Positions 261-32,174 of a DNA stretch of 45,914 bases are shown one piece after another (the first letter of the stretch is position 1; every line of letters starts with the position of its first letter). The stretch covers positions 1 through 45,914 of the forward strand of contig NZ_PVWK01000058.1 of NCBI RefSeq assembly GCF_003003795.1. Direction: 5' to 3'. The position numbers and the translations under genes are program-made. Origin of the DNA: Stenomitos frigidus ULC18 (GTDB taxonomy: Bacteria; Cyanobacteriota; Cyanobacteriia; Leptolyngbyales; Leptolyngbyaceae). The notes beneath the pieces are model-generated. The model was not told where the DNA came from, made no database searches, and worked only from the letters and a program-made list of their open reading frames with translations.

Positions 261-3200
261 TTAATGCTCAATTGCCCCTAATGTTTTCAGGGTAGACTTT
301 TGAGCTATTGTCAACCCGGTCGCACCTTGAATATTCATGCCTTCATAGAGGCGATCGATCGTCAATGTGCTGATACAACGTCCTGTTTCCACATCCCATA
401 GTTTAATCGTGCGATCATAACTGCCACTGATTAGGATTTGACCGTTGGAGCTAAACAGGACGGACGTGACCCAACTGGTGTGTTCGCACAATGTTTGCAG
501 GCAGTGTCCCGTTTGCAAATCCCACAAACGGATGGTTTGGTCATCGCTGCCACTGGCTAAGATTCGACCATCTGGACTGATGGCAAGCGTCCAGACCACT
601 CCTGTATGTCCCTGCAATATCTTCAGACACGCGCCAGTTTGCAGATCCCACAAGCGAATGGTTTGGTCATGGCTACCGCTGACCAAGCGTTGACCACTGG
701 GATCAAATGCCAATGCGAAAATGGCACCCGTATGCTCCTGCAACACCCTCAAACATGCCCCAGTTGGCACATCCCATAAGCGAATGGTGTCATCAAAACT
801 ACCACTTGCTAACCATTGACCGCTAGGGTCGAAGGCAATCGCGAGAATACCGCTCTCATGCCCGCGTAACACCTGCAAACAATGATGTGTTTGCACATCC
901 CATAGTCGCACAGTGCAATCATAACTACTGCTTGCTAAAATCTTTCCCCCCGGGCTGAACAGCACTGTCCAGATGGATGCGCTATGTGCCAACCATTGGT
1001 CGAACCGCTCAGCTTGGATATGCCATACAGCGATCGAGTCATCATGTCGATTGATCGCTAGCATTTGACCATCCGGACTAAAGCTGACGTTGCTTAAGGA
1101 TGAAATCTGACGGGTCGGGCTGGAAAATGTTTTGTAGGGATGAAGTTGTGGCAAATTGCTATCGAGCTGCAAACGCCACAGCTGAATCGCTTCATTCTGA
1201 CCACTACTGGCAAGCATTTGATCATCCGCACTGAGGCTCAGGGAGTGAAGCCCGCCGGTATAGCCGCGCAACGTTTTAAGGTTTCGTCCGCTCTGCAAAT
1301 GCCACAGCCGCACCGTATGGTCTTTTCCTGCACTCACCAACAATTGACCGTCGGCACTAATCGCAAGCCCGTGAACATCGTGCGTATGACTGTCGAGCAC
1401 ATAGATGGATTGACCATCCTGGACACTCCAAAGGCGCAGAGTCCCATCGCGACTGGCACTGGCTAACAAGCGTCCATCTGGACTAAAGGCGATGTCCCAA
1501 ACCCAATCGGTGTGTCCCTGTAGCACCTTGAAATTGAGCGTTGACGCTTGATCGCTAGCAAGATAACCGCTCCACAGCCGAATTGACCCATCACGACTGC
1601 CGCTCGCAAGCAGTTGACCATCGGGGCTATATCGCACACACTGAACCCCACAGATATGCCCCTGTAAGACACTCAGGCAGTTCCCGTTGCTCACATCCCA
1701 GATCCGAATGGTCGTATCATGACTGCTGCTGACCAAGGTTTGCTGGTCCGGAGCGAAGTGGGCAGCGTAAACACTCTGGACGTGCCCTTTCAAGACCTGG
1801 AGACACTGCCCTTGCAAATTCCACACGCGCACGGTTTGGTCGGCGCTGCTACTCGCTAATTGCTGACCATCGGCGCTAAAACTCACTGACCAAACACAGC
1901 TTGTATGCTCTGTGAGCACCTGCAAGCATCGTCCACTCTGGATATTCCACAAGCGCACCGAACTATCCGTACTGCCGCTGGCTAACATCGTGCCATCCGG
2001 ACTAAAGGCGACAGACCACACCCAGCCTGTGTGCCCTTCAAAGATGGCTAAGAGTTGGGCTGTGCTGATATTCCAGAGGTAGAGGTTGCCATTGGAAGCT
2101 CCGACTGCAATTGTCTGACCGTCTGGACTCAGGTCGATCGACATCGCATTACTGAGGGTTTCTGAAAAGATAGATTGGGCTAAATTGGCATTCTGAAAAT
2201 TGACTCTGGCTAAATCGATCTGTCTCAAGTCAGCTTGCTGCACGACAAGGTCAGAAAAGTCAGAGCCGCGCAAATCGACCTGAAGCTGCACCAGCAAGTT
2301 AATCAAGTTGCCTGCAGCGTACCCTGGTTTCTTTCCCTGCTGCCTTAATAAATGTTTTGCCTGCGCCTCGATCGCCGCTACACTGCCAAAGCGAGACAGC
2401 AACTGTTCCATCACAGGCTGCATAATGAGGCGCGTCTGAATCTCTCGAATGTAATCTTTTGCTTGGACTCGTAGTAAGGGATGCGTTTGCCAAACGTTAA
2501 GCTGCTGCGTCTCAAATTCGACGCAAATTTGCTGCACGAATCGCTCTGTGATATATTCCATCACCACGGGTTGCAAGAAGAAGAACCCATCTTTTTTTTC
2601 AATGAGCGATCGCCGGAGTAGTGAGTTGACCAGATTGGGTACCCGTTGCTGAGTAGCAAGATCAACCACACTTTCTCGAATATCGGCGATCGAGACTGGC
2701 TCCCGATAAATTGCAAACCAGGATAATGTTTTCTGTTCAGCTTCAGAGAGGCGATCGAACTGACGGTTCAGCAAATCGCGAATGTCTTCAAAAACAGCCA
2801 ATCCCTGACTGAGATAGGGCAACACCTCGGTAATGCGGCCGTTAAACAAATCCTGAATGGCGGCTGCCAGCAATTTTAGTGCCAGGGGATTGCCGCCATA
2901 GTGATGGATCAACGTCTGCCATTCCGCTTCTGACCCTGTAAATGCTCCTTTCTGCCGGAAGATGGCGCGTCCGTCATCAGGGGTTAGCCCACTCAAGGTC
3001 AGCGAAGCGCAAGCGCGACGACCAGTCGTTCGCACCACACTTTCATCCTCTTCCATCAGTACCATTTCGCGTGGCTTTTCTCGACTGGTGAGCAACAAAC
3101 AACTTTGGTGGGACGCTTCGCCAATGTCTCTGAGCAACTGCCCGTAGCCTTCGTAGCCCGATCGCCAGTGTCCCACGGGCTCACGCTGCAAAATGGTTTC

Positions 3201-3899
3201 CGCATTATCCAGAATTAATAAACACCGACGCGATCGCAGGTATTGCATCAGTTTGGAGACCTGCTGAGCCAACGTAGTAGGAATGATGGGATCTTCCCCA
3301 TAGAGTGGCATGAGAAACTTTAGCAGGCTCGACAGAAGTTCCTCCAACGGTGGCGCATTGGCAAGCGATCGCCATACAACAATCTCAAATTCTGCCTGCA
3401 TTTGCAGCGCGGCTTTGACGGCGATCGTACTTTTGCCAATGCCCCCAATGCCCAACAGCCCAACTACACGACAGCGCTCAGCAATGACCCATTGCCACAG
3501 TTGCGTCAGTTCTACCTCACGCCCATAAAATACCGAGGCATCGACCGCCGTATCCCAGTCCTGTTGGGGATTTGTCCAGCGGTTCTCTGTTTCTTCAGAG
3601 GAGGCAGGGGATGTCAGATCTGTCTTCGTCAACTCCAGCCCAAATGCCCGGAAGAGGTACTCCACTGACTGGCGATCCACCCCCAGTTCACGCTTGAAGA
3701 TGCGGGCAAGGGTATTGAGGGAAAGGCTAGTGCGATCGCTGAGATCTTCCTGGGTGAGGTGCTTCCCCCACGTTTCGTCCGCTTCTGTTTGCTGTTTTGC
3801 CGTCTGAAATCTTTGCCATCCCTGGGGCGACAGGATAACTCCTCGCACTCGCCCAGAAGTGGAGCGACCCCGTCCAGATTTTGATGGGTTGGCATCCAT
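261..3899 (-). CDS. NB-ARC STAND ATPase with 14 WD40 repeats
   Basis: This 1212-residue signal-transduction ATPase has three parts. Residues 20-95 form a short helical N-terminal domain of the kind found in cyanobacterial NB-ARC/WD40 proteins (motif [21 protein letters not shown]). The NB-ARC NTPase has Walker [10 protein letters not shown] (150-158), Walker B LLILD (227-231) and a GNPLALK motif (336-342). A pentapeptide-like stretch (541-582) leads into 14 WD40 repeats (about 588-1185), enough for two seven-bladed propellers. The WD40 part should be the sensor, with nucleotide exchange driving oligomerisation. Targets and effector are unknown; such proteins act in regulation, programmed death or phage defence. 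Its NB-ARC region is clearly homologous to the shorter STAND protein at 30792-32174. It is monocistronic as far as seen. Confidence 0.9.
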
Positions 3900-4086
3900 A
3901 GTTTAGCCAATGCCGTAAAGGACAGAGTGAGTCTTTCCTCAACATACCGGGCGTTTCTTCAATCAAGGTTTGGCAAAGAGTTTCAGCAGCATAAATTGAC
4001 AGGCAAATGATTTCGTCTTGGCTGAAGTATATCAGGTTTAATGGCTCCTGGCTCACTTCCTGCGGCGTTCCTCAACTGCAAAATGA

Positions 4087-4150
4087 TTTAAGTTGCGTTT
4101 TAACTCAAAGAACTTGAGTGGTGTGCATGGAGCGATCGCAGAAGAATGAA
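4087..4150 (+). promoter_or_regulatory. Shared upstream block, copy 1 (dyad ACTCAA-N5-TTGAGT)
   Basis: The perfect inverted repeat ACTCAA-N5-TTGAGT lies at 4103-4119, preceded by TTTAAGTTGCGTTTTA and followed by GGTGTGCATGG and a GCGATCG...GAAGAATGAA block. Near-identical blocks occur at 7683-7749 and 8874-8938, each ahead of a redox gene. The dyad ends 77 bp before the VOC gene start. The size and symmetry fit a dimeric repressor or activator operator; no regulator gene is nearby to assign it to. Confidence 0.6.
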
Positions 4151-4196
4151 GTTAATCGAGGTGGGCAGCAAACTCACCAAGCTAAAGGAGAACAAG

Positions 4197-4664
4197 ATGA
4201 GTAGCAATCCTGTAAACAGTCAAAACATGAAACTCGAAGTTGTGGTAATTCCCATTGCGGATGTTGATCGAGCCAAGCAGTTCTATGAGGCGTTGGGATG
4301 GCGGCTGGATGCTGATTTTGTCACCAGTGAGGACTTCCGAGTAGTGCAGTTGACCCCTCCTGGATCGGAAGCCTCGATCATCTTTGGTAAAGGAGTTTCG
4401 TCAGCCACGCCAGGTTCAGTTCAGGGTCTGCACCTGATCGTTTACGACATCGAGGCAGCCCGTGCCGAACTCGTCGATCGGGGTGTCGAGGTAAGTGAAG
4501 TGTTCCACGACATCGGCGGGATCTTTCACCATGCCGGAACCGAGGGACGGGTACCGGGTCCCGATCCGAAGCGTCGCGACTATGCCTCCTTTGCTTCGTT
4601 TAGTGATCCAGATGGCAATGGTTGGGTGCTCCAGGAAGTGAAAACCCGTGCTCCCGGACGGTAA
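4197..4664 (+). CDS. VOC (glyoxalase/bleomycin-resistance fold) family protein
   Basis: The protein has 155 residues. I chose the ATG at 4197 because AAAGGAG lies 6 bases upstream and because its paralogue at 8985 starts with the same MSSNPVNS. An in-frame ATG at 4146 exists but lacks this site. The fold reads as a glyoxalase domain: KLEVVVIPIADVDRAKQFYEALGW at the start, FRVVQLTPPGSEASIIFG in the middle, and a second half ending FSDPDGNGWVLQEV, with His and Glu residues able to bind metal. Such proteins act as lyases, isomerases or drug-binding proteins on small electrophiles; the substrate cannot be read. It is first in a likely operon with the two SDR genes that follow. Confidence 0.85.
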   Translation: MSSNPVNSQNMKLEVVVIPIADVDRAKQFYEALGWRLDADFVTSEDFRVVQLTPPGSEASIIFGKGVSSATPGSVQGLHLIVYDIEAARAELVDRGVEVSEVFHDIGGIFHHAGTEGRVPGPDPKRRDYASFASFSDPDGNGWVLQEVKTRAPGR

Positions 4665-4708
4665 CAGGACATCAACACACTAAACAACACTTAAAACAAG
4701 GACACATG

Positions 4709-5563
4709 ATGAAAACGCAGAAAGTATGGTTCATTACCGGAGCATCCAGGGGCTTTGGGTTAGAAATTGCTAAAGCAGCCCTGGCAGAGGGCGATCGGGT
4801 CGTAGCAACGGTTCGCAGTCAGCCCGCACAACTCGCCGCCATTTTGGACAACCACCCGGATTTGTCCGTTGTGCCGATGGATGTCACCCAGGAAGCCCAG
4901 GTACAGGCCGCTGTCCAGCAAGGCATTACCCGGTTTGGTCGGATTGATGTCTTGGTCAATAATGCCGGGTATGGCATGGTGACGGCGATCGAAGAAGCCA
5001 CGGATGCTGAAACTCGCAAACAGTATGACACCAACGTCTTTGGATTACTCAACGTGACTCGTGCTGTGTTGCCGTACCTGCGCCAGCAAAAGTCCGGGCG
5101 GGTGATCAATATCTCGTCGCTGTTTAGCTACGATGCCGTTCCGGGCTGGGGCTTGTATGGGTCCACCAAGTTTGCGGTTGAAGGGATCTCGAAAGGGCTA
5201 GCGATCGAACTGGCACCGCTCGGCATCCACGTCACGGCAGTAGCTCCCGGTCTTTTCAGTACTGACTTCCTCAGCACTGACTCCTATGTTGCCGCGAAAA
5301 CCATCATTAACGATTACCAGGCAACGGTAGGACCGATGCGGAGCGGAGCCGATGCGCTACACGGGAACCAGCCCGGTGATCCGAAAAAGTTTGCCCAGGT
5401 GGTTCTTCAATTAGCTAATACAGAGCATCCGCCGCTACATTTGCCCGTCGGGAAGGACACGATCGCGATGTACCAAAACAATGCCGCAAGAATGGCAGAG
5501 GAAATTGAAGCATGGCTACCAGTCGCGACCAGCACCGACCATGACCACCACATAGCGGCTTAG
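4709..5563 (+). CDS. Short-chain dehydrogenase/reductase (SDR)
   Basis: A classical SDR of about 284 residues. The start is set at the second of two adjacent ATGs (4706 and 4709) because AAGGA lies 6 bases before 4709; the frame stays open further upstream without a ribosome site. It shows the nucleotide-binding motif TGASRGFG, the structural NNAG, an active-site Ser in NISSLF and Tyr/Lys in YGSTK. It should oxidise or reduce an alcohol/carbonyl with NAD(P)H; the substrate is unknown. The C-terminal part (TDFLSTDSY and after) resembles SDRs annotated as oxidoreductases acting on short ketones. It follows the VOC gene by 44 bases and precedes another SDR by 49 bases. Confidence 0.88.
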   Translation: MKTQKVWFITGASRGFGLEIAKAALAEGDRVVATVRSQPAQLAAILDNHPDLSVVPMDVTQEAQVQAAVQQGITRFGRIDVLVNNAGYGMVTAIEEATDAETRKQYDTNVFGLLNVTRAVLPYLRQQKSGRVINISSLFSYDAVPGWGLYGSTKFAVEGISKGLAIELAPLGIHVTAVAPGLFSTDFLSTDSYVAAKTIINDYQATVGPMRSGADALHGNQPGDPKKFAQVVLQLANTEHPPLHLPVGKDTIAMYQNNAARMAEEIEAWLPVATSTDHDHHIAA

Positions 5564-5612
5564 ACCATCGTCTGATCTACAACATTCACACATGATTGCC
5601 AAAGGAGATGTC

Positions 5613-6389
5613 ATGAAACTGGAAGGGAAGAAGGCACTGATTACTGGGGGAAATAGCGGTATTGGCTTTGCCACCGCTCGACTCTTCATTCGCGAAGGCG
5701 CTGAGGTCGCAATCACGGGTCGAGATCAGAAGACGCTCGATGCTGCCCTCGCAGAACTGGGTTCAAAAGCCGTTGCCTATCGTGCAGATGTGACGGACTC
5801 CCACGCCCGCGCCGACCTTTTCAGCAAAATTGGTCAGCGGTTCGGCAGTCTGGATATCGTCTTCGCCAACGCGGGTATTCCTGGAGTCACGCCTATGGGA
5901 AGCACTGACGAAACAGTGTTTGAGCACATCATTCGCGTCAATCTCACCAGCGTTTTCTTTACCGTACAAGCCGCACTACCGCTGCTCAATGATGGCTCCT
6001 CAATCATCTTGAACAGTTCAGTGCTTGGCTCGCTGGGACATCCAGGACAGGCAGCTTACGCCGCAAGCAAAGCAGGTGTTCGCGGCATGGCAAGAACGAT
6101 CGCATCTGAGCTTTCTCCTCGCAACATTCGGGTCAACGTCGTTGCACCGGGAGCCACAAAAACTCCCATCTGGAGCCGTGATTCTACTCCGTCTCAAGCG
6201 GATGAAGAACTGGCGGCAAAAATGGCAGCAACGATTCCCCTGGGTCGTTGGGGAGAAGCGGATGAGATTGCCAAAGCCGTCCTTTTTCTTGCTTCAGACG
6301 ATTCGTCCTACGTCCAGTCGGTTGAGCTTTTCGTCGATGGCGGCAACGTTGGTTCCCCAAACGGTGGAGTAGCTTTCCGCAGTGCATAA
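5613..6389 (+). CDS. Short-chain dehydrogenase/reductase (SDR), FabG-like
   Basis: A 258-residue SDR. The ATG at 5613 is chosen because AAAGGAG (5601-5607) sits 5 bases upstream; an earlier ATG at 5592 contains that site inside the frame. Motifs are TGGNSGIG (cofactor), ANAG, Ser in LNSSVLG and YAASK (catalytic Tyr/Lys), and a C-terminal FVDGG typical of FabG-like SDRs. It would reduce a ketone or oxidise an alcohol with NAD(P). Third gene of the plus-strand run starting with the VOC protein at 4197. It is not obviously a duplicate of the preceding SDR, from which it diverges throughout. Confidence 0.88.
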   Translation: MKLEGKKALITGGNSGIGFATARLFIREGAEVAITGRDQKTLDAALAELGSKAVAYRADVTDSHARADLFSKIGQRFGSLDIVFANAGIPGVTPMGSTDETVFEHIIRVNLTSVFFTVQAALPLLNDGSSIILNSSVLGSLGHPGQAAYAASKAGVRGMARTIASELSPRNIRVNVVAPGATKTPIWSRDSTPSQADEELAAKMAATIPLGRWGEADEIAKAVLFLASDDSSYVQSVELFVDGGNVGSPNGGVAFRSA

Positions 6390-6463
6390 ATTGTTTGCCC
6401 CATCCGAACGATCGCTAGCTGCTTCCTTTTCCCCTGCGCTTCTTGCAAATCTCTATTTAATCA

Positions 6464-7354
6464 ATGGTAATAACGATGACGACACCAGAGACAATGATAG
6501 GAACAGTCAGCCCTCAAGCACTGACTGAAAGCAGACTGCAATTACACTATGCCGTTCAATATATTGCTGCAACAGGTGCGGCATTAGCGGAGCCTCTACC
6601 AGACCACAGTCACACCAGCTTTGGATGGAATCCAGCTTTAGAAGCGTTTGTTGGCTCAACGATTCCAGCGACTCAGCCCTTTCAAGTTGCAGTCGAACCC
6701 ATCAGCCTCACCTTAATCCTGGTAGCTGATCAGAATGACACGATCGCCTCTTTGCCATTACATGGAAAGACCATGCGAGAAGGACTGGACTGGCTCCAGC
6801 AAGCGCTTGCTAAACTCGGTGCCGATGCCAGCAAGATTGTGTTTTTAGATTATCCACCGAATGACTTTCCCGATCATCCCCTGGCTCATGATGCAGCCTT
6901 TGATGCCAGTCCGGGGTTTGCATTGCGTGAATTAGCAGACACTTACATCATCACTGATCAACTACTTCAGACGATCATTACCACTAACGAGAATGCTTCA
7001 GCAATTCACATTTGGCCCCATCACCTTGATATCGCAACGCTGATTACGCTTCCTGACACCAAAAATGGGCATCCACTGACAGTCGGGATTGGATTTTCGC
7101 CCGGAGATGCGAGCTATCCAGAACCCTACTGGTATGTCTCTCCTTATCCCTATCCAGACATCGCCAATCTTCCTACTCTGGAGGGGCAAGCGTTTTGGCA
7201 TACCCAACACTGGGTTGGGGCTGTGCTGCGATCGTCCCAATTGAGTGAGAATGCCACTGCTGAAACCCAACAACAGCAGGTTGGGACATTCTTGAATGCT
7301 GCCCTGAACGCATCAATCACCCTACTCAAATCCGAGGCTTCTGCTGGGGTTTGA
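6464..7354 (+). CDS. Conserved protein of unknown function (WPHH motif)
   Basis: This 296-residue soluble protein has no signal peptide or membrane segment. A striking conserved-looking block is HIWPHHLDIATLITL, followed by GIGFSPGDASYPEPYWYV and a C-terminal Trp-rich FWHTQHWVGAVL. The WPHH-D-A pattern reminds me of DUF5996-type proteins, but I could not confirm this. The His-rich core could bind metal. The start is uncertain: ATG 6464 has no clear ribosome site and ATG 6476 is an alternative. It lies 74 bases after the SDR gene, so it may belong to the same transcript, and it is followed by a palindromic repeat that may end transcription. Confidence 0.75.
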   Translation: MVITMTTPETMIGTVSPQALTESRLQLHYAVQYIAATGAALAEPLPDHSHTSFGWNPALEAFVGSTIPATQPFQVAVEPISLTLILVADQNDTIASLPLHGKTMREGLDWLQQALAKLGADASKIVFLDYPPNDFPDHPLAHDAAFDASPGFALRELADTYIITDQLLQTIITTNENASAIHIWPHHLDIATLITLPDTKNGHPLTVGIGFSPGDASYPEPYWYVSPYPYPDIANLPTLEGQAFWHTQHWVGAVLRSSQLSENATAETQQQQVGTFLNAALNASITLLKSEASAGV

Positions 7355-7383
7355 TGATCAATATTTTGACCAACCGAGGATTC

Positions 7384-7476
7384 ATACCAATTCAATATGA
7401 GCCTGCACATAAACAAGGGGCTTAAGCCCCTTGTTTCAGAGGTTTCGTTCTGTGCAGCTTTAAAGAAAATTGGTAT
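7384..7476. repeat. Palindromic MITE-like element
   Basis: Terminal inverted repeats ATACCAATT (7384-7392) and AATTGGTAT (7468-7476) enclose a second imperfect inverted pair (GCCTGCACA / TGTGCAGC) and a perfect 26-bp palindrome at 7411-7436 centred on CTTAAG. The whole 93 bp can fold into one long hairpin. ACCAATT-ended elements of this kind are common between cyanobacterial genes. It may also act as a terminator for the 4197-7354 gene run. The rest of the 7355-7823 gap holds only the regulatory block at 7683. Confidence 0.7.
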
Positions 7477-7682
7477 CAGATCTTAAGTAATCTTTCTCAT
7501 AGAGGTTGATTAAACATGTTCTTGCAGGGGAATAAGCTGCAACTGTGAACACGTAAATGTTCCATCAGTATATGAGCAGTCGTACAGAAACGAAACCTAC
7601 GCTAAATTCGTTCAATTCATCCTACCCCTTGGTACACCAAAGCTAAATTCACTGGAATGTTGAAAGTCCAGGAAAACACCCG

Positions 7683-7749
7683 TTTAAGTTGCGGCTTAAC
7701 TCAACTAACTTGAGTGGTCTAAATAAGAGCGATCGCTGAAGAATAAAGC
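7683..7749 (+). promoter_or_regulatory. Shared upstream block, copy 2 (dyad ACTCAA-N5-TTGAGT)
   Basis: Second copy of the block at 4087. It carries the perfect dyad at 7699-7715 inside TTTAAGTTGCGGCTTA...GTGGT, followed by GCGATCG and GAAGAATAAAG. It ends about 75 bases before the SDR gene at 7824. The flanks differ from copies 1 and 3 (CTAAATAAGA instead of GTGCATGG), so the conserved dyad suggests selection rather than a very recent duplication. Confidence 0.6.
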
Positions 7750-7823
7750 GTAATGGCACTCTGCCATTCAACCGATTCAACCCTCATTCCACCAACCCCC
7801 AAAACGCATAAAGGAGTTTTACT

Positions 7824-8534
7824 ATGAGCACTGAACAGAAAGTTGCTGTGATTACCGGCGCATCACAGGGCATCGGCGCAGCCCTTGTCAAGGCATACCG
7901 CGATCGCAACTATCGGGTGGTTGCCATCTCACGCTCAATTCGACCATCGGATGATGATGCCATTCTGGCAGTATCAGGCGACCTCGCTGATCGAAAAACT
8001 GCCGAACGGGCAATCATCGAAGGCGTGACCCGCTTCGGGCGCATCGACACACTGATCAACAACGCTGGCATCTTCATCGCCAAGCCCTTCACCCAATACA
8101 CTCAAGCTGATTACGACGCTTACCTGGGCACTAACATCGCTGGCTTCTTTCACATGACGCAACTCGCCATCGCCGAGATGGCAAAGCAGGGCAGTGGTCA
8201 TATCGTGCAGATATCCACAAGCCTGGTTGACAACCCGATCGCGGGCGTACCGTCTGTACTCGCATCACTGACGAAGGGCGGACTGAATAGCGCGACTCGA
8301 TCGCTGGCGATCGAGTATGCCAAGCGCGGTATCCGGGTGAACGCGATCGCGCTGGGTAACATCAAGACGCCCATGCACCCTGCCGAGACCCATGCACAGC
8401 TCGCTGCCATGCACCCAATTGATCGGATGGGCGAGATCTCTGACATCGTTGATGCAATCCTCTACCTCGAATCAGCCAACTTTGTGACAGGCGAAATCCT
8501 TCACGTTGATGGCGGTCAGAGTGCGGGGCACTGA
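7824..8534 (+). CDS. SDR-family protein with catalytic Tyr replaced by Ala
   Basis: A 236-residue SDR; AAAGGAG ends 8 bases before ATG 7824. It has a good cofactor motif (TGASQGIG) and NNAG, Ser in QISTSL, and the C-terminal VDGG. In the place of the YxxxK motif it reads ASLTK, with Ala147 and Lys151, so the usual proton-donor Tyr is missing. It may therefore be non-catalytic, use another residue, or bind NAD(P) in a regulatory way; SDRs with related LTKGG segments seem to exist as a subgroup. It is followed after 4 bases by the NIPSNAP gene, so the two are probably co-translated. Confidence 0.85.
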   Translation: MSTEQKVAVITGASQGIGAALVKAYRDRNYRVVAISRSIRPSDDDAILAVSGDLADRKTAERAIIEGVTRFGRIDTLINNAGIFIAKPFTQYTQADYDAYLGTNIAGFFHMTQLAIAEMAKQGSGHIVQISTSLVDNPIAGVPSVLASLTKGGLNSATRSLAIEYAKRGIRVNAIALGNIKTPMHPAETHAQLAAMHPIDRMGEISDIVDAILYLESANFVTGEILHVDGGQSAGH

Positions 8535-8538
8535 AGGC

Positions 8539-8865
8539 ATGATCTACGAATTACGCATTTATCACGCCATCCCCGGACGACTACCTGCGCTGCTTGCGCG
8601 CTTCCAGAACCACACGCTGCGGATTTGGGAAAAGCATGGTATCCATCAGGCTGGATTCTGGACAACGCTAATCGGCGAGAGCAACCAACAACTCACCTAC
8701 CTGCTCGCCTGGGACAGCATGGCTGAACGCGAGGATCGCTGGAACGCCTTCCTTGCTGACCCCGAATGGATTGCAATCAGCACCGAAACCGAGAAGGGCG
8801 GTCAACTCATCCAGAACATCAGCAGCGAGTTGCTGGCACCAACCACCTTTTCCTCGGTGAAGTGA
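8539..8865 (+). CDS. NIPSNAP family protein
   Basis: A 108-residue protein starting MIYELRIYHAIPGRLPALLARF and containing WEKHGIHQAGFW and AWDSMAEREDRW. This pattern is typical of the NIPSNAP family, which has a dimeric alpha-beta barrel fold. The biochemical role of bacterial NIPSNAPs is poorly known; they often lie beside SDRs and other small-molecule enzymes. ATG 8539 begins just 4 bases after the preceding SDR stop, and the ribosome site (GAAGG) overlaps that stop, so translational coupling is likely. The longer frame from 8506 lies inside the SDR gene and is not preferred. Confidence 0.82.
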   Translation: MIYELRIYHAIPGRLPALLARFQNHTLRIWEKHGIHQAGFWTTLIGESNQQLTYLLAWDSMAEREDRWNAFLADPEWIAISTETEKGGQLIQNISSELLAPTTFSSVK

Positions 8866-8873
8866 GTGTCCCA

Positions 8874-8938
8874 TTTAAGTCGCGTTTTAACTCAACGAAC
8901 TTGCGTGGTGTGCATGGGGCGATCGTAGAAGAATGAAA
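8874..8938 (+). promoter_or_regulatory. Shared upstream block, copy 3
   Basis: Third copy of the block. The dyad at 8890-8906 is ACTCAA-N5-TTGCGT, with one base changed in the right arm. It begins 8 bases after the NIPSNAP stop and the dyad ends 78 bases before the VOC gene at 8985, almost the same spacing as copy 1 to its VOC gene (77). Copies 1 and 3 also share GTGTGCATGG and GAAGAATGAA, so this block was probably duplicated with the VOC gene. Confidence 0.55.
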
Positions 8939-8984: not shown

Positions 8985-9656
8985 ATGAGTAGCAATCCTG
9001 TAAACAGTCCAGACATGAAGCTCGAAGTTGTATTGTTCAGCGTTTCCGACGTCGATCGCGCGAAGGCATTCTATGAGAATCTCGGCTGGCGGCTCGACAT
9101 TGACATCGCGGTGGGCGACTTCCGCGGCGTGCAGATGACACCGCCCAACTCAGAAGCCTCGATCATCTTCGGCAATGGAGACGGGTCCGGCTCGGTGCAG
9201 AACTTGGTTCTCGCCGTGGATGACCTCGATGCTGCTCGTAAAGACTTGATCGATCGCGGTGTCAACGTGAGTGAGATCTTCCACTACGCGGGTGGACCCT
9301 TCAACAACGCGGTGGAGAACCCACGCGTCAACGGGCGCGACCCAGAAGGTCGTTCCTATTTCTCCTTTGCCTCATTTGAAGATCCAGACGGAAACCTCTG
9401 GCTACTTCAGGAAATCACAACGCGGTTTCCTGATCGGCTGTGGGATTCTCCTCGAACAGACGTTGCAACTCTTGCAACCTTGCTGCGTGAGACGGCAGAG
9501 CACCACGACTCCTACGAGAAAACTCACGCTGAGCATCACTGGTGGGACTGGTACGCGCCCTATCTGAGTGCGCGTCAGAATGGCAGCAGTCCAGAAGAAG
9601 CCGCCGTCGCCGCTGATCGTTACATGGAGGAGGTTGTTCCTGTTCTTTCTAGATGA
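8985..9656 (+). CDS. VOC family protein with extra C-terminal domain
   Basis: The protein has 223 residues. ATG 8985 follows TAAAGGAG at good spacing, and the protein opens MSSNPVNS exactly as its paralogue at 4197. The VOC domain (about 1-150) shows DVDRAKAFYENLGWRLD, PPNSEASIIFG, and FEDPDGNLWLLQEI. Unlike the paralogue it continues for about 70 residues with AEHHDSYEKTHAEHHWWDWYAPYL and EEAAVAADRYMEEV, a His/Trp-rich helical tail also known on some actinobacterial VOC proteins. Substrate unknown; a role with small electrophiles or aldehydes is inferred from its neighbours. The remnant of an epoxide hydrolase lies immediately downstream. Confidence 0.85.
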   Translation: MSSNPVNSPDMKLEVVLFSVSDVDRAKAFYENLGWRLDIDIAVGDFRGVQMTPPNSEASIIFGNGDGSGSVQNLVLAVDDLDAARKDLIDRGVNVSEIFHYAGGPFNNAVENPRVNGRDPEGRSYFSFASFEDPDGNLWLLQEITTRFPDRLWDSPRTDVATLATLLRETAEHHDSYEKTHAEHHWWDWYAPYLSARQNGSSPEEAAVAADRYMEEVVPVLSR

Positions 9657-14326: not shown

Positions 14327-14920
14327 CTATGTTGTCTTCGTCGTTGGTTCTGGCGCTACCTTGAGAGCCAAGTTGGGATTGATATAGCGATAGTAAGTCG
14401 GACGGCTAATGTTCAGATGGTTACAGATGGACGACACACTCTGTTTGGGGTCTGCTGCCAGCGATCGCCCAATGGCAATTTGCTGTGGCGTTAACTTCTG
14501 CTGCCGTCCCCCTTTGCGTCCCCTCGCTCTCGCTGCTTGCAAGCCAGCCTGAGTGCGCTCCCGAATCAGGTTACGCTCAAACTCCGCCAATGCCCCGAAC
14601 ATATGAAAGATTAACTTTCCGCTGCTACTCGTAGTATCAATACTTTCCTGCAGCGAGCGAAACCCAATCTTACGCTGCTCCAATCCCTCGACCAATGCCA
14701 TCAGGTCTTTGAGCGATCGCCCTAAGCGATCGAGTCTCCAAACGACCAGCGTGTCTCCTTTCCTGGCAAACGCAAAGGCTTCTTTTAATCCAGGGCGATC
14801 GGCTTTCGCTCCACTCATTTTGTCAGCGAAGATTTTTTCGCACCCTGCGGCTTGCAGCGCATCATGTTGCAACGCCAAATTTTGGTCGTCGGTTGAAATG
14901 CGTTCGTACCCAATGAGCAT
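14327..14920 (-). CDS. Serine recombinase (resolvase/invertase family)
   Basis: This 197-residue enzyme cuts and rejoins DNA through a covalent serine link. It has the catalytic Ser9 in YERISTDDQN, arginines in WRLDRLGRSL (Arg65 and Arg68), and FHMFGALAEFERNLIRERT leading into the E-helix. A C-terminal helix-turn-helix (about 145-180, SVSSICNHLNISRPTYYRYI) would bind the site. It is full length for a Tn3-type resolvase or Hin-like invertase. No transposase is adjacent, so it is a solitary resolvase, either a remnant of a Tn3-family element or a local inversion/resolution system. No Shine-Dalgarno site is seen. Confidence 0.92.
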   Translation of the reverse strand: MLIGYERISTDDQNLALQHDALQAAGCEKIFADKMSGAKADRPGLKEAFAFARKGDTLVVWRLDRLGRSLKDLMALVEGLEQRKIGFRSLQESIDTTSSSGKLIFHMFGALAEFERNLIRERTQAGLQAARARGRKGGRQQKLTPQQIAIGRSLAADPKQSVSSICNHLNISRPTYYRYINPNLALKVAPEPTTKTT

Positions 14921-15194: not shown

Positions 15195-15318
15195 CTTCAG
15201 TAGTTGTGCACACTCGACGTACCAGCACGACTGCTAGAAAAGCCATTCGCTGGGTCAATTGGGACATCGATCCAGAGGCTTTCGCAGTGCAGCCCTGAGC
15301 AATATTGCTTATCGAAAC

Positions 15319-15374
15319 GATCGCGCAGCCTAGGAGGATGGATGGGTGAGCAAAACTGCGATCAATCGCACTAC
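15319..15374 (+). repeat. Direct repeat flanking the hicAB module, left copy
   Basis: GATCGCGCAGCCTAGGAGGA and the following bases (GGATGGGTGAGCAAA-ACTGCGATC-AATC) recur at 16024-16080 with a few changes. The right copy lies directly before sat, so the left copy looks like a duplicated sat upstream region. The HicAB genes lie between the two copies. Confidence 0.65.
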
Positions 15375-15899: not shown

Positions 15900-16023
15900 A
15901 CGCTGATTTTAACCCAGGCTTAATGACCCTAAGCGGTCGCGCCCCCATCACATGATGGGCGATCGCAGCAGCCATCAACACTTTAACGAGTGTGGGGTGT
16001 AGTTTCTAAACAGCTAGAGGAAT

Positions 16024-16080
16024 GATCGCGCAGCCTAGTAGGATGGATGGGTGAGCAAACTCTGCGATCGATACACTGCA
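16024..16080 (+). repeat. Direct repeat flanking the hicAB module, right copy
   Basis: Second copy of the 15319 repeat, ending 13 bases before the sat start. It differs by single changes (CCTAGTAGG for CCTAGGAGG, CTCTGCG for ACTGCG). It may hold part of the sat promoter. Confidence 0.65.
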
Positions 16081-30791: not shown

Positions 30792-32174
30792 TCAAGTCCG
30801 CTGCTCAATAGCGCGATGTACCATGTATTCAGTCATAAGTGCCTGTAAAGAATAGCGGGCGGCCGTGCCTTCGATAAGCGATCGCCGCAGCAACGATTGC
30901 AAAACCTCTTGAACCTCTACATTGGTGATCGGGCGCGTTACGGATTGAATAATTTCAGTGATTGTCAGGGGTTCATGATGCTTCACCAGACATTCAACAA
31001 TGGCACGCTCTAGATCTGACAAGCGGTTAAATTGGCGATCGAGCAGCGAGCGAATGTCCTCAAACAAGGCAGTGCCCTGCTGCAACTCTTCCAAAAAGTT
31101 TTTGACATCGCCATCGAAGACTTCTCGGACATTGGTAGCGATCGCATTCAACGCCGATGGATTGCCCTCATAGCGTTGGATAATCAACCGCCAGTCGCTA
31201 TCCGCGCAAGAGAACGCTCCTTTGGCATTCAAAAATTCTCGTGCTGCTAGCTCTCCTAACCCTTCTAGCTTTAAGGCAAAAACACGCTGATTTCCACCTT
31301 CCATACGGGCAACGTCTTTCGGCTTTTCCGCACTGGTAAAGACCAAACAACTTTGATGCACGGTCTGCCCCACTTGCTTCAGCAGTTCACCATACTCTTC
31401 ATAGCCTTCTTGGTATGACCCGTTATGCACGCCACCGCGTAACACTGACTCTAAGCCGTCCAAAACAATCAAACACGATTGATTGCGCAGGTAATACAGT
31501 AAGCGCGTCAACTCGGTGCTGGTCTCCTGCCCGTTAGAGAGAAACTGGACGAGATCGGCAACCAGTGAGGTTAGCGATGGCGCGGGCTGAAGCGATCGCC
31601 AGATCAGGAAGTCGAACTGATCTTTGACCTGATGTGCTAGTTTCGCTGCCAGCGTTGTTTTGCCAATACCCGGCGCACCAAACAGAACAATCAAACGGCA
31701 GCCATTGAAGCTAAAGCGCTCCTCTAGCTGTTCGAGTTCTTTGATGCGCCCAAAGACGGATGACACCGCCGGAATGTTGCCCCAATCTTCCCATTGTGGC
31801 TTGTGTTCCTCCCAAAGTAGATTGGACTCTGGCTCTAATCTAAGGTTGGGTTCGGGCTGTGACCGCTCAGAAGTGGTAGATGTGCCGTTGCGATCGCGCC
31901 TGGATCGCAGCTCTTTTGCTCGTTCGATCGGTCCTTGCAGATTGCGTTTACTCACTCGATCGTCCACAACATCGGAAAGCAGTCGCCATAGTTCTGGTCC
32001 AACGTTCTGAATCAAGTGCTGATAAGTACAGCGACTAGAGCATTCCTGGTAAATCTTCCTAGAACTTTTGCCCTCCCACGCTCCTCGGAACATGACTCGT
32101 TGGAGATCATTGAGCCGTTTTTCCTGCTCTGAAAGTAGCTGCTCGACAAACTTGAGTGCTTCGTCAGCGTCCAT
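30792..32174 (-). CDS. NB-ARC STAND ATPase with short N-terminal domain, no sensor repeats
   Basis: A 460-residue protein. The N-terminal domain (1-75, LNDLQRVMFRGAWEGKSSRKIYQECS) is the vMAP-type effector/adaptor helix-turn-helix domain known from ternary conflict systems. A low-complexity charged linker follows, then NB-ARC with Walker A GAPGIGKTT (166-174), Walker B LIVLD (235-239) and a winged-helix tail to the end. It is homologous to residues 130-450 of the STAND protein at 261-3899 (shared HQSCL, EKP and FEDIR..LLxRQFxRLS patterns) but has no WD40 or other repeats, so its sensor is missing or supplied by a partner. Divergent small membrane genes start 235 bases away. Confidence 0.85.
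   Translation of the reverse strand: MDADEALKFVEQLLSEQEKRLNDLQRVMFRGAWEGKSSRKIYQECSSRCTYQHLIQNVGPELWRLLSDVVDDRVSKRNLQGPIERAKELRSRRDRNGTSTTSERSQPEPNLRLEPESNLLWEEHKPQWEDWGNIPAVSSVFGRIKELEQLEERFSFNGCRLIVLFGAPGIGKTTLAAKLAHQVKDQFDFLIWRSLQPAPSLTSLVADLVQFLSNGQETSTELTRLLYYLRNQSCLIVLDGLESVLRGGVHNGSYQEGYEEYGELLKQVGQTVHQSCLVFTSAEKPKDVARMEGGNQRVFALKLEGLGELAAREFLNAKGAFSCADSDWRLIIQRYEGNPSALNAIATNVREVFDGDVKNFLEELQQGTALFEDIRSLLDRQFNRLSDLERAIVECLVKHHEPLTITEIIQSVTRPITNVEVQEVLQSLLRRSLIEGTAARYSLQALMTEYMVHRAIEQRT

Follow-up and report, generated by a model that had tools for sequence, protein, structure and literature searches.

A shared operator-promoter element ahead of redox and detoxification genes in cyanobacteria, and a divergent STAND protein as its candidate regulator

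The stretch of DNA analyzed here, called the window below, comprises 45,914 nucleotides of Stenomitos frigidus ULC18 (contig NZ_PVWK01000058.1) and carries three copies of a block that resembles an operator and promoter, each followed by redox or detoxification genes, together with a divergently oriented gene for a large STAND protein that is the best candidate for their regulator. The blocks start at 4087, 7683, and 8874, all on the forward strand, where a first-pass annotation of the sequence had correctly placed them, and an internal-repeat comparison of the window groups them as repeat family D7 (4086-4150, 7682-7746, and 8873-8937). The dyad that had been read in them, ACTCAA-N5-TTGAGT, is exact in blocks 1 and 2 and carries a single change in block 3. 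An ungapped comparison with block 1 gives 92% identity for block 3 and only 60% for block 2, mainly because of a single extra base after position 42 of the latter.

Each block stands before a separate run of forward-strand genes, in agreement with the initial description of the locus, and each run is predicted to form a single transcription unit. Block 1 is followed by a gene of the VOC (glyoxalase/bleomycin-resistance) family (4197-4664; Pfam Glyoxalase, E 2.8e-9), two genes for SDR oxidoreductases (4709-5563, above the cut-off of NF004824/PRK06180, and 5613-6389, by domain scan), and a gene for a DUF5996 protein (6464-7354, by domain scan), the last one ahead of block 2. Block 2 precedes an SDR oxidoreductase gene (7824-8534, by domain scan) and a NIPSNAP-family gene (8539-8865; Pfam NIPSNAP, E 9.2e-28), and block 3 precedes a second VOC-family gene (8985-9656, by domain scan). 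Because blocks 1 and 3 both lie ahead of related VOC genes, gene duplication explains part of their likeness. The sequence downstream of the two blocks is 75% and 78% identical (D4 and D8), as against 92% for the blocks themselves, which are more alike than what follows them.

The length of the block sets it apart from chance occurrences of its dyad. The dyad with at most one mismatch was rejected as a search motif, being uninformative (32 sites in the genome versus 41 for a reversed control), whereas the 33-base pattern TTTAAGTYGCGNNTTAACTCAANNNNNTTGNGT with at most three mismatches has exactly three matches in the 6.98-Mb genome, all within the window, and none for the control. A profile derived from sequence alone, with 42 blocks as input including three of the window, scores the window blocks at 61-78 bits and the next best genome site at 22.7 bits (150 of 8827 first-look candidates scored). 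The only strong copies found in the genome are thus the three of the window, all ahead of genes. For this genome, that excludes the outcome named in the first-pass annotation as fatal to a regulon, a dispersed repeat present hundreds of times outside promoters. The site next in line after the one at 22.7 bits, C80:37566 at 18.6 bits, was dismissed as chance, being a hairpin of terminator type behind a gene that by eye is superoxide-dismutase-like.

Among relatives, the long pattern is present in 10 of the 42 genomes of the order and in 26 of the 388 genomes of the class, with three reversed-control matches in total. An exact 22-base core was found in 70 stretches of a genome-contig collection, 69 of which have cyanobacterial titles, with carriers that include Nostoc, Calothrix, Scytonema, Fischerella, and Leptolyngbya. 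The flanks of the remaining one, a Verrucomicrobia metagenome-assembled genome (L113), and of the core match in L164 do not fit the block, so both are probably chance. Comparison of upstream regions in relatives thus bore out the idea of a common site: a shared operator-promoter element before redox and detoxification genes recurs in many cyanobacterial genera. A phage or mobile-repeat reading was rejected, as the exact core has no match in IMG/VR and only one plasmid match was found. That match, in Nostoc sp. ATCC 53789, is one block broken after the -35 and carried by a conjugative plasmid, with genes for DsbA, SDR, NIPSNAP, GMC oxidoreductase, VOC, nitronate monooxygenase, and epoxide hydrolase as neighbors. 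The detoxification island with the broken block on the conjugative Nostoc plasmid (L248/L249; NZ_CP046704.1) also holds a sensor kinase and a response regulator, and its location indicates that the gene set can move between cells.

The consensus of 104 distinct contexts reads wtTAAgTcGCGttTTAACTCAAagAACTTGAGT, followed by GGTnTgnATtgggCGATCGCAGAAGAATGAA; the latter part was absent from the search pattern, so its conservation is not a product of how the blocks were selected. To judge from this layout, the block is a regulated promoter made up of an operator and a core promoter. The operator, a putative binding site, would span block positions 1-33 with the half-sites TTAAGT, ACTCAA, and TTGAGT, and the predicted core promoter positions 33-61, where TGGTNT would be a -35 that departs from the consensus and AANAAT, after about 17 bp of spacer, the -10. 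An offset test gave a clear peak for the -10 at position 56, with the key A and T in 90% of 103 blocks and the hexamer AAGAAT or AACAAT in 83 of them. TGGTNT, 17 bp upstream, is a poor -35 (on average 2.3 of 6 consensus matches), and there is no consensus -35 at 16-18 bp from the -10; TTGAGT would match better (3.9 of 6), yet it lies at 22 bp. A69, eight bases past the -10 and present in 87% of blocks, is the probable transcription start, and the center of the dyad lies 44 bp before it, close to the usual place of a class II activator site. Measured from the predicted start, the block has the features of a sigma-70 class II activator promoter: a -10 at fixed distance, a poor -35, and an operator centered near -40.

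In the window, a genome pattern search and the consensus of relatives place the operator of block 1, TTTAAGTTGCGTTTTAACTCAAAGAACTTGAGT, at 4087-4119, and the offset test places its -35-like TGGTGT at 4119-4124 (block positions 33-38), 17 bp from the -10 AAGAAT at 4142-4147, with a predicted start at A4155. In block 2, the operator from the pattern search (7683-7715) is followed by TGGTCT (7715-7720), an 18-bp spacer, AAGAAT (7739-7744), and a predicted start at A7752. The operator of block 3 (8874-8906, also from the pattern search) has one base changed in its right arm and is followed by TGGTGT (8906-8911), a spacer of 17 bp as in block 1, AAGAAT (8929-8934), and a predicted start at A8942. 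Two other readings of this region were discarded: a canonical -10 directly after GGTNTNNAT, as the offset test peaks at position 56, and a leader peptide from the ATG in AGAAGAATGAA, because many blocks carry TAA at that site and the ATG overlaps the -10. A reading of the block as a transcribed RNA leader, or as a repeat scattered through the genome, is extremely improbable. A 6-bp hairpin could arise from the dyad, but folding energies are ordinary (z +0.66, -0.70, and +0.40), Rfam gave no match up to E 1, and the -10 sits at a fixed place behind the dyad in an element whose only strong genome copies are the three found before genes.

The gene divergent to block 1 (261-3899, reverse strand) starts 187 bp from it and encodes the candidate regulator, a STAND protein of 1212 residues with an N-terminal helix-turn-helix (HTH)-like domain, an NB-ARC region, a pentapeptide stretch, and WD40 repeats. 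The NB-ARC/nSTAND1 region (residues about 119-393; 2721-3545) matches NB-ARC at E 1.7e-13, with 50.8 bits against a cut-off of 23.5, and contains a Walker A motif, GIGGIGKS, at residue 150, a Walker B-like CLLILDN at 226, and GNPLA at 336. By simple patterns, Walker A, Walker B-like, and GNPLA-like motifs are kept in 61 of 61 homologues of at least 400 residues. The WD40 region (residues about 580-1200; 300-2162), a putative sensor, scores 477 bits with Pfam WD40 in 11 stretches. An NB-ARC match above cut-off, the conserved motifs, and the C-terminal repeat sensor identify the product, by its domain composition, as a STAND NTPase of the NB-ARC class.

The HTH-like domain (residues about 21-98; 3606-3839) matches Pfam HTH_31 and HTH_3 at E values of 0.012 and 0.019, both below cut-off. 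It could be aligned in 60 homologues, where it is 37-91% identical to that of the window protein, and its structural model has four helices and a mean predicted local distance difference test score of 72, rising to about 79-91 over residues 21-90. Among solved structures, those nearest to the model are for the most part HTH proteins of the XRE type (HipB, MBF1/EDF1, C.Esp1396I, SinR, and RodZ/YmfM); their scores are modest, so that DNA binding by the modeled domain is likely but unproven. Within the genome, the HTH-NB-ARC part has 13 matches at E<=1e-20. Elsewhere in the window lies another STAND-like gene, a short one (30792-32174, reverse strand); its 460-residue product is without the WD40 part and is 39% identical over residues 111-462.

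The association of the block with this gene was followed across the 388 genomes. Close STAND homologues were defined by at least 70% identity over residues 1-563 (search at E<=1e-130, up to three candidates scored per genome), and 129 profile matches were obtained at E<=0.001 with stricter filters (up to 13 candidates scored per genome). Of the 31 close homologues listed, 28 have a profile match no more than 500 bp upstream on the other strand, compared to 1 of the 41 listed at lower identity, and that single gene belongs to the S. frigidus genome itself; near edges of the linked matches are 120-419 bp from the STAND gene. At the level of genomes, a match occurs in 24 of the 25 with a close STAND gene and in 19 of the 363 without (Fisher p 2e-25, ignoring kinship of genomes). 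Since a divergent block is usual beside a close STAND gene, the STAND protein is its likely regulator, contrary to the first-pass annotation, which had found no regulator encoded in the window.

The close homologues include two clades. The profile held blocks linked to clade A and no clade B operator, and it still found a match at 13 of 14 clade B genes, a result that is therefore not circular. Weight-matrix scoring places a block of more than 15 bits upstream of 22 of the 24 genes in clade A and 13 of the 14 in clade B, at median distances from residue 1 of 187 and 144 bp, respectively. In clade A, the first genes driven by the linked block form about 10 sequence clusters (a raw count of 12 that includes one locus where no gene was found and one misframed reading), and in clade B five. 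The target changes but the block and the STAND gene stay together, as would be expected if one were the site of the other's product. The earlier expectation of a single dimeric regulator holds insofar as one shared element is involved; "dimeric" is too narrow, given at least three half-sites and the oligomer expected by analogy to the STAND protein MalT. Likewise, the regulator gene preceded by the same dyad that was to be sought is found, in a family other than those proposed: no HxlR, MarR, MerR, or LysR gene was recognized by eye among 75 of the 110 gene clusters near blocks, not all of which were Pfam-scanned.

Several sites related to the linked blocks deserve mention. Outside the window, the best match in the same genome scores 22.7 bits and falls in the region divergently upstream of a STAND paralogue with 55-56% identity. 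The diverged, related block at this paralogue (G000:C104:7494-7556; L088 and L239) has direct TTAAGTTGA repeats and the core TGGTCT-N17-AAGAAT, and it stands ahead of an NmrA-like gene. In L151 (6645-7196), a block whose promoter part is broken lies between two divergent STAND genes, 86% and 47% identical to that of the window. At L087, a homologue with a single in-frame stop in its STAND gene, both arms have changed in such a way that the dyad persists (ACGCAA-N5-TTGCGT). A one-to-one pairing of operator arm and recognition-helix residue (TTGCGT with N, TTGAGT with K; by eye) was rejected, as block 3 and L209 break the pattern and the groups are single clades.

A number of observations weigh against the STAND protein as regulator of the blocks. 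Its HTH matches in Pfam (E 0.012-0.02) are all below cut-offs, the best Foldseek E value for the N-terminal domain is 0.06 with none reaching 0.001, structural Z scores are at most 6.9, and the enzymes MPnS and HEPD are also among the structural matches. The linkage counts cover the STAND homologues and profile matches that were listed, and three close STAND genes are without a divergent match (G221, G180, and G039:C265). Most blocks do not adjoin a STAND gene (28 clade A or B genes with a linked match, among 129 profile matches), and 19 of the 43 genomes with a profile match lack a close STAND gene, ten of them with strong matches (G002, G004, G011, G015, G041, G079, G174, G204, G333, and G374) and nine with weak ones. 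G015, a complete genome, has two good blocks and a partial one and no close STAND gene. Of 38 named block-bearing genomes, 12 lack a close STAND gene; they average 1.17 exact-core blocks per genome, versus 2.35 in the others, and the decay of blocks in STAND-less genomes is only a trend (-10 intact in 10 of 14 versus 54 of 61, p 0.20). Moreover, the close linkage could result in part from shared descent of one segment. The same 19 genomes would speak for another, unlinked transcription factor that binds the block. The block, however, tracks the STAND clade, and besides the STAND gene and a response regulator no recurrent DNA-binding gene was noticed by eye near blocks, making such a factor improbable.

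That response regulator, of the NarL/LuxR type, would offer a different explanation, in which it acts with a kinase/AAA sensor of roughly 2000 residues, binds the dyad, and controls the blocks, with the STAND gene as a traveling neighbor. LuxR-type HTH proteins bind dyads. The response regulator sits in or next to several of the detoxification islands; out of up to 84 loci, 8 contain it and 10 contain the sensor cluster. At 85% identity or more it is present in 8 of the 388 genomes, all eight of which have a block-profile match, and its islands extend to genomes without a close STAND gene (G174 at 89%; G204 and G079 at 75%) and to the plasmid pNsp_a, whose host chromosome lay outside the comparison; in G015, the partial match (C1:2933142) adjoins it. 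Nevertheless, response-regulator genes in G113:C5 (L251, with VOC and SDR genes) and G168:C91 (L254) are without a block, on contigs with no profile match listed, and no block precedes the sensor gene in the seven loci where its start is visible. Block-bearing genomes G036, G004, and G011 yielded no response regulator at E<=1e-75 (seven candidates scored per genome), and none of the 12 named STAND-less block genomes has it at 85% or more, four having a copy at 76-77%. Because of these blockless stretches and sensor genes and the block genomes in which it was not found, the response regulator ranks second to the STAND protein and is considered unlikely.

The genes behind the blocks are of a consistent kind. 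In the loci examined, 139 distinct blocks score above 15 bits, and an open frame follows 134 of them, about six apparently misframed. With family names mostly read by eye and some proteins domain-scanned, the largest groups of first genes are VOC (61), SDR (14), alpha/beta hydrolases (11), and NmrA-like (6 and 3); smaller ones comprise YbjQ-like proteins, HlyD efflux, zinc-type dehydrogenases, GMC oxidoreductases, SnoaL-like proteins, and cupins. Epoxide hydrolase, NIPSNAP, carbon-nitrogen hydrolase, nitronate monooxygenase, and DsbA-like genes recur within 4 kb of strong blocks. From the nature of these targets, it is plausible that the regulon responds to a reactive compound. A possible further target, judged by eye to be transaldolase-like, is the gene that three genomes have at the 3' end of the STAND gene; it follows degenerate blocks with four to six mismatches (L044:4619, L047:14787 on the reverse strand, and L050:4812). 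Block-like sites also occur in genomes without a close STAND gene (L259, L260, and L261), ahead of genes that by eye are nitronate-monooxygenase-like and hydrolase-like in G041 and FAD-oxidoreductase-like in G333. Apart from the regulon, the window contains a 39-bp direct repeat (15316-15354 and 16021-16059; 95% identity, 705 bp apart). It lies close to a gene that by eye resembles serine recombinases (14327-14920) and, likewise by eye, upstream of one resembling sulfate adenylyltransferase.

Taken together, the data make it reasonably probable that the divergent HTH-NB-ARC-WD40 protein is a MalT-like ATP switch that activates the block promoters. The sequences show the element and its conservation, a promoter-like geometry, the genes that follow it, and its linkage to and co-occurrence with this STAND clade; from them we infer that the protein binds the block, activates, and oligomerizes on DNA, and what kind of signal it senses. 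At rest, the STAND protein would be an ADP-bound monomer. Its WD40 repeats may sense a compound that is foreign or causes damage, or else a protein that such a compound has altered, whereupon ATP-bound copies would assemble and their HTH domains would jointly occupy the half-sites adjoining the -35. The assembly would then recruit RNA polymerase and turn on the VOC, SDR, NIPSNAP, and related detoxification genes, perhaps together with the STAND gene itself. Alternatively, the STAND protein could bind the block as a repressor that is freed by an inducer. A repressor, too, would work from the -35 region, which the dyad touches; however, the absence of a near-consensus -35 at 16-18 bp is expected of a promoter needing help, and the accounts of MalT drawn on here describe that STAND transcription factor as an activator, so that repression appears distinctly unlikely.

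More generally, activation by the STAND protein may be one case of a wider scheme, which is possible although held with somewhat less than even confidence: the abundant cyanobacterial HTH-NB-ARC-WD40 proteins would be NLR-like one-component gene switches, each clade with its own operator in a promoter shared with a divergent stress gene, and would form a family that senses foreign or reactive compounds and whose regulons could be deduced directly from genome sequence. If so, the blocks of clades A, B, and C, with different arms and redox or detoxification targets, would be members of one series. In the open-licence literature, no function was found for HTH-bearing cyanobacterial NB-ARC-WD40 proteins, nor a description of the block regulon; one report describes sigma factors in which NB-ARC or WD40 is an accessory domain (PMC11119718). 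The pairing of one clade with a 64-bp operator-promoter and compact targets makes this orphan NLR-like family testable, and it would show an architecture resembling that of immune receptors put to the control of metabolism genes.

Among known systems, MalT carries its HTH domain at the C terminus, and that domain is of the LuxR type. In the window protein, by contrast, the HTH-like domain is N-terminal and XRE-like, the sensor consists of WD40 rather than TPR repeats, and the predicted targets are detoxification genes. The two are alike in their STAND core, large repeat sensor, and HTH or HTH-like domain, and the window protein is proposed to share with MalT (PMC4381067, PMC6468293) an ATP-driven assembly on promoters. 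With regard to domain order, the window protein shares with AfsR the arrangement of an N-terminal domain, putatively DNA-binding in the window protein, followed by NB-ARC. AfsR is a SARP-NB-ARC-TPR regulator with an N-terminal DNA-binding domain. The match to the NCBIfam AfsR model (NF053617) is weak, at 32.6 bits over residues 66-238 and thus far below the cut-off of 1430, and both the DNA-binding domain and the sensor differ.

NB-ARC is also found in Apaf-1, which has WD40 repeats as well, and in plant NLR and bacterial NLR-like defense proteins. The window protein shares NB-ARC with all of them and WD40 with Apaf-1; it differs in having an HTH-like domain at the effector position and in the association of its gene with a promoter element, features that speak for a role in gene control rather than in cell death or defense. 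The SoxR/MerR regulons have a dyad of similar look near the core promoter, and the block regulon resembles them in this respect and in its redox and detoxification gene set. In contrast to those regulons, no MerR gene was noticed at block loci, and in the predicted promoter the operator lies upstream of and adjoins a -35 at normal spacing instead of lying between the -35 and the -10. Placed in no named regulator family, the STAND protein of the window would, if the proposal is right, work like the known STAND activators.

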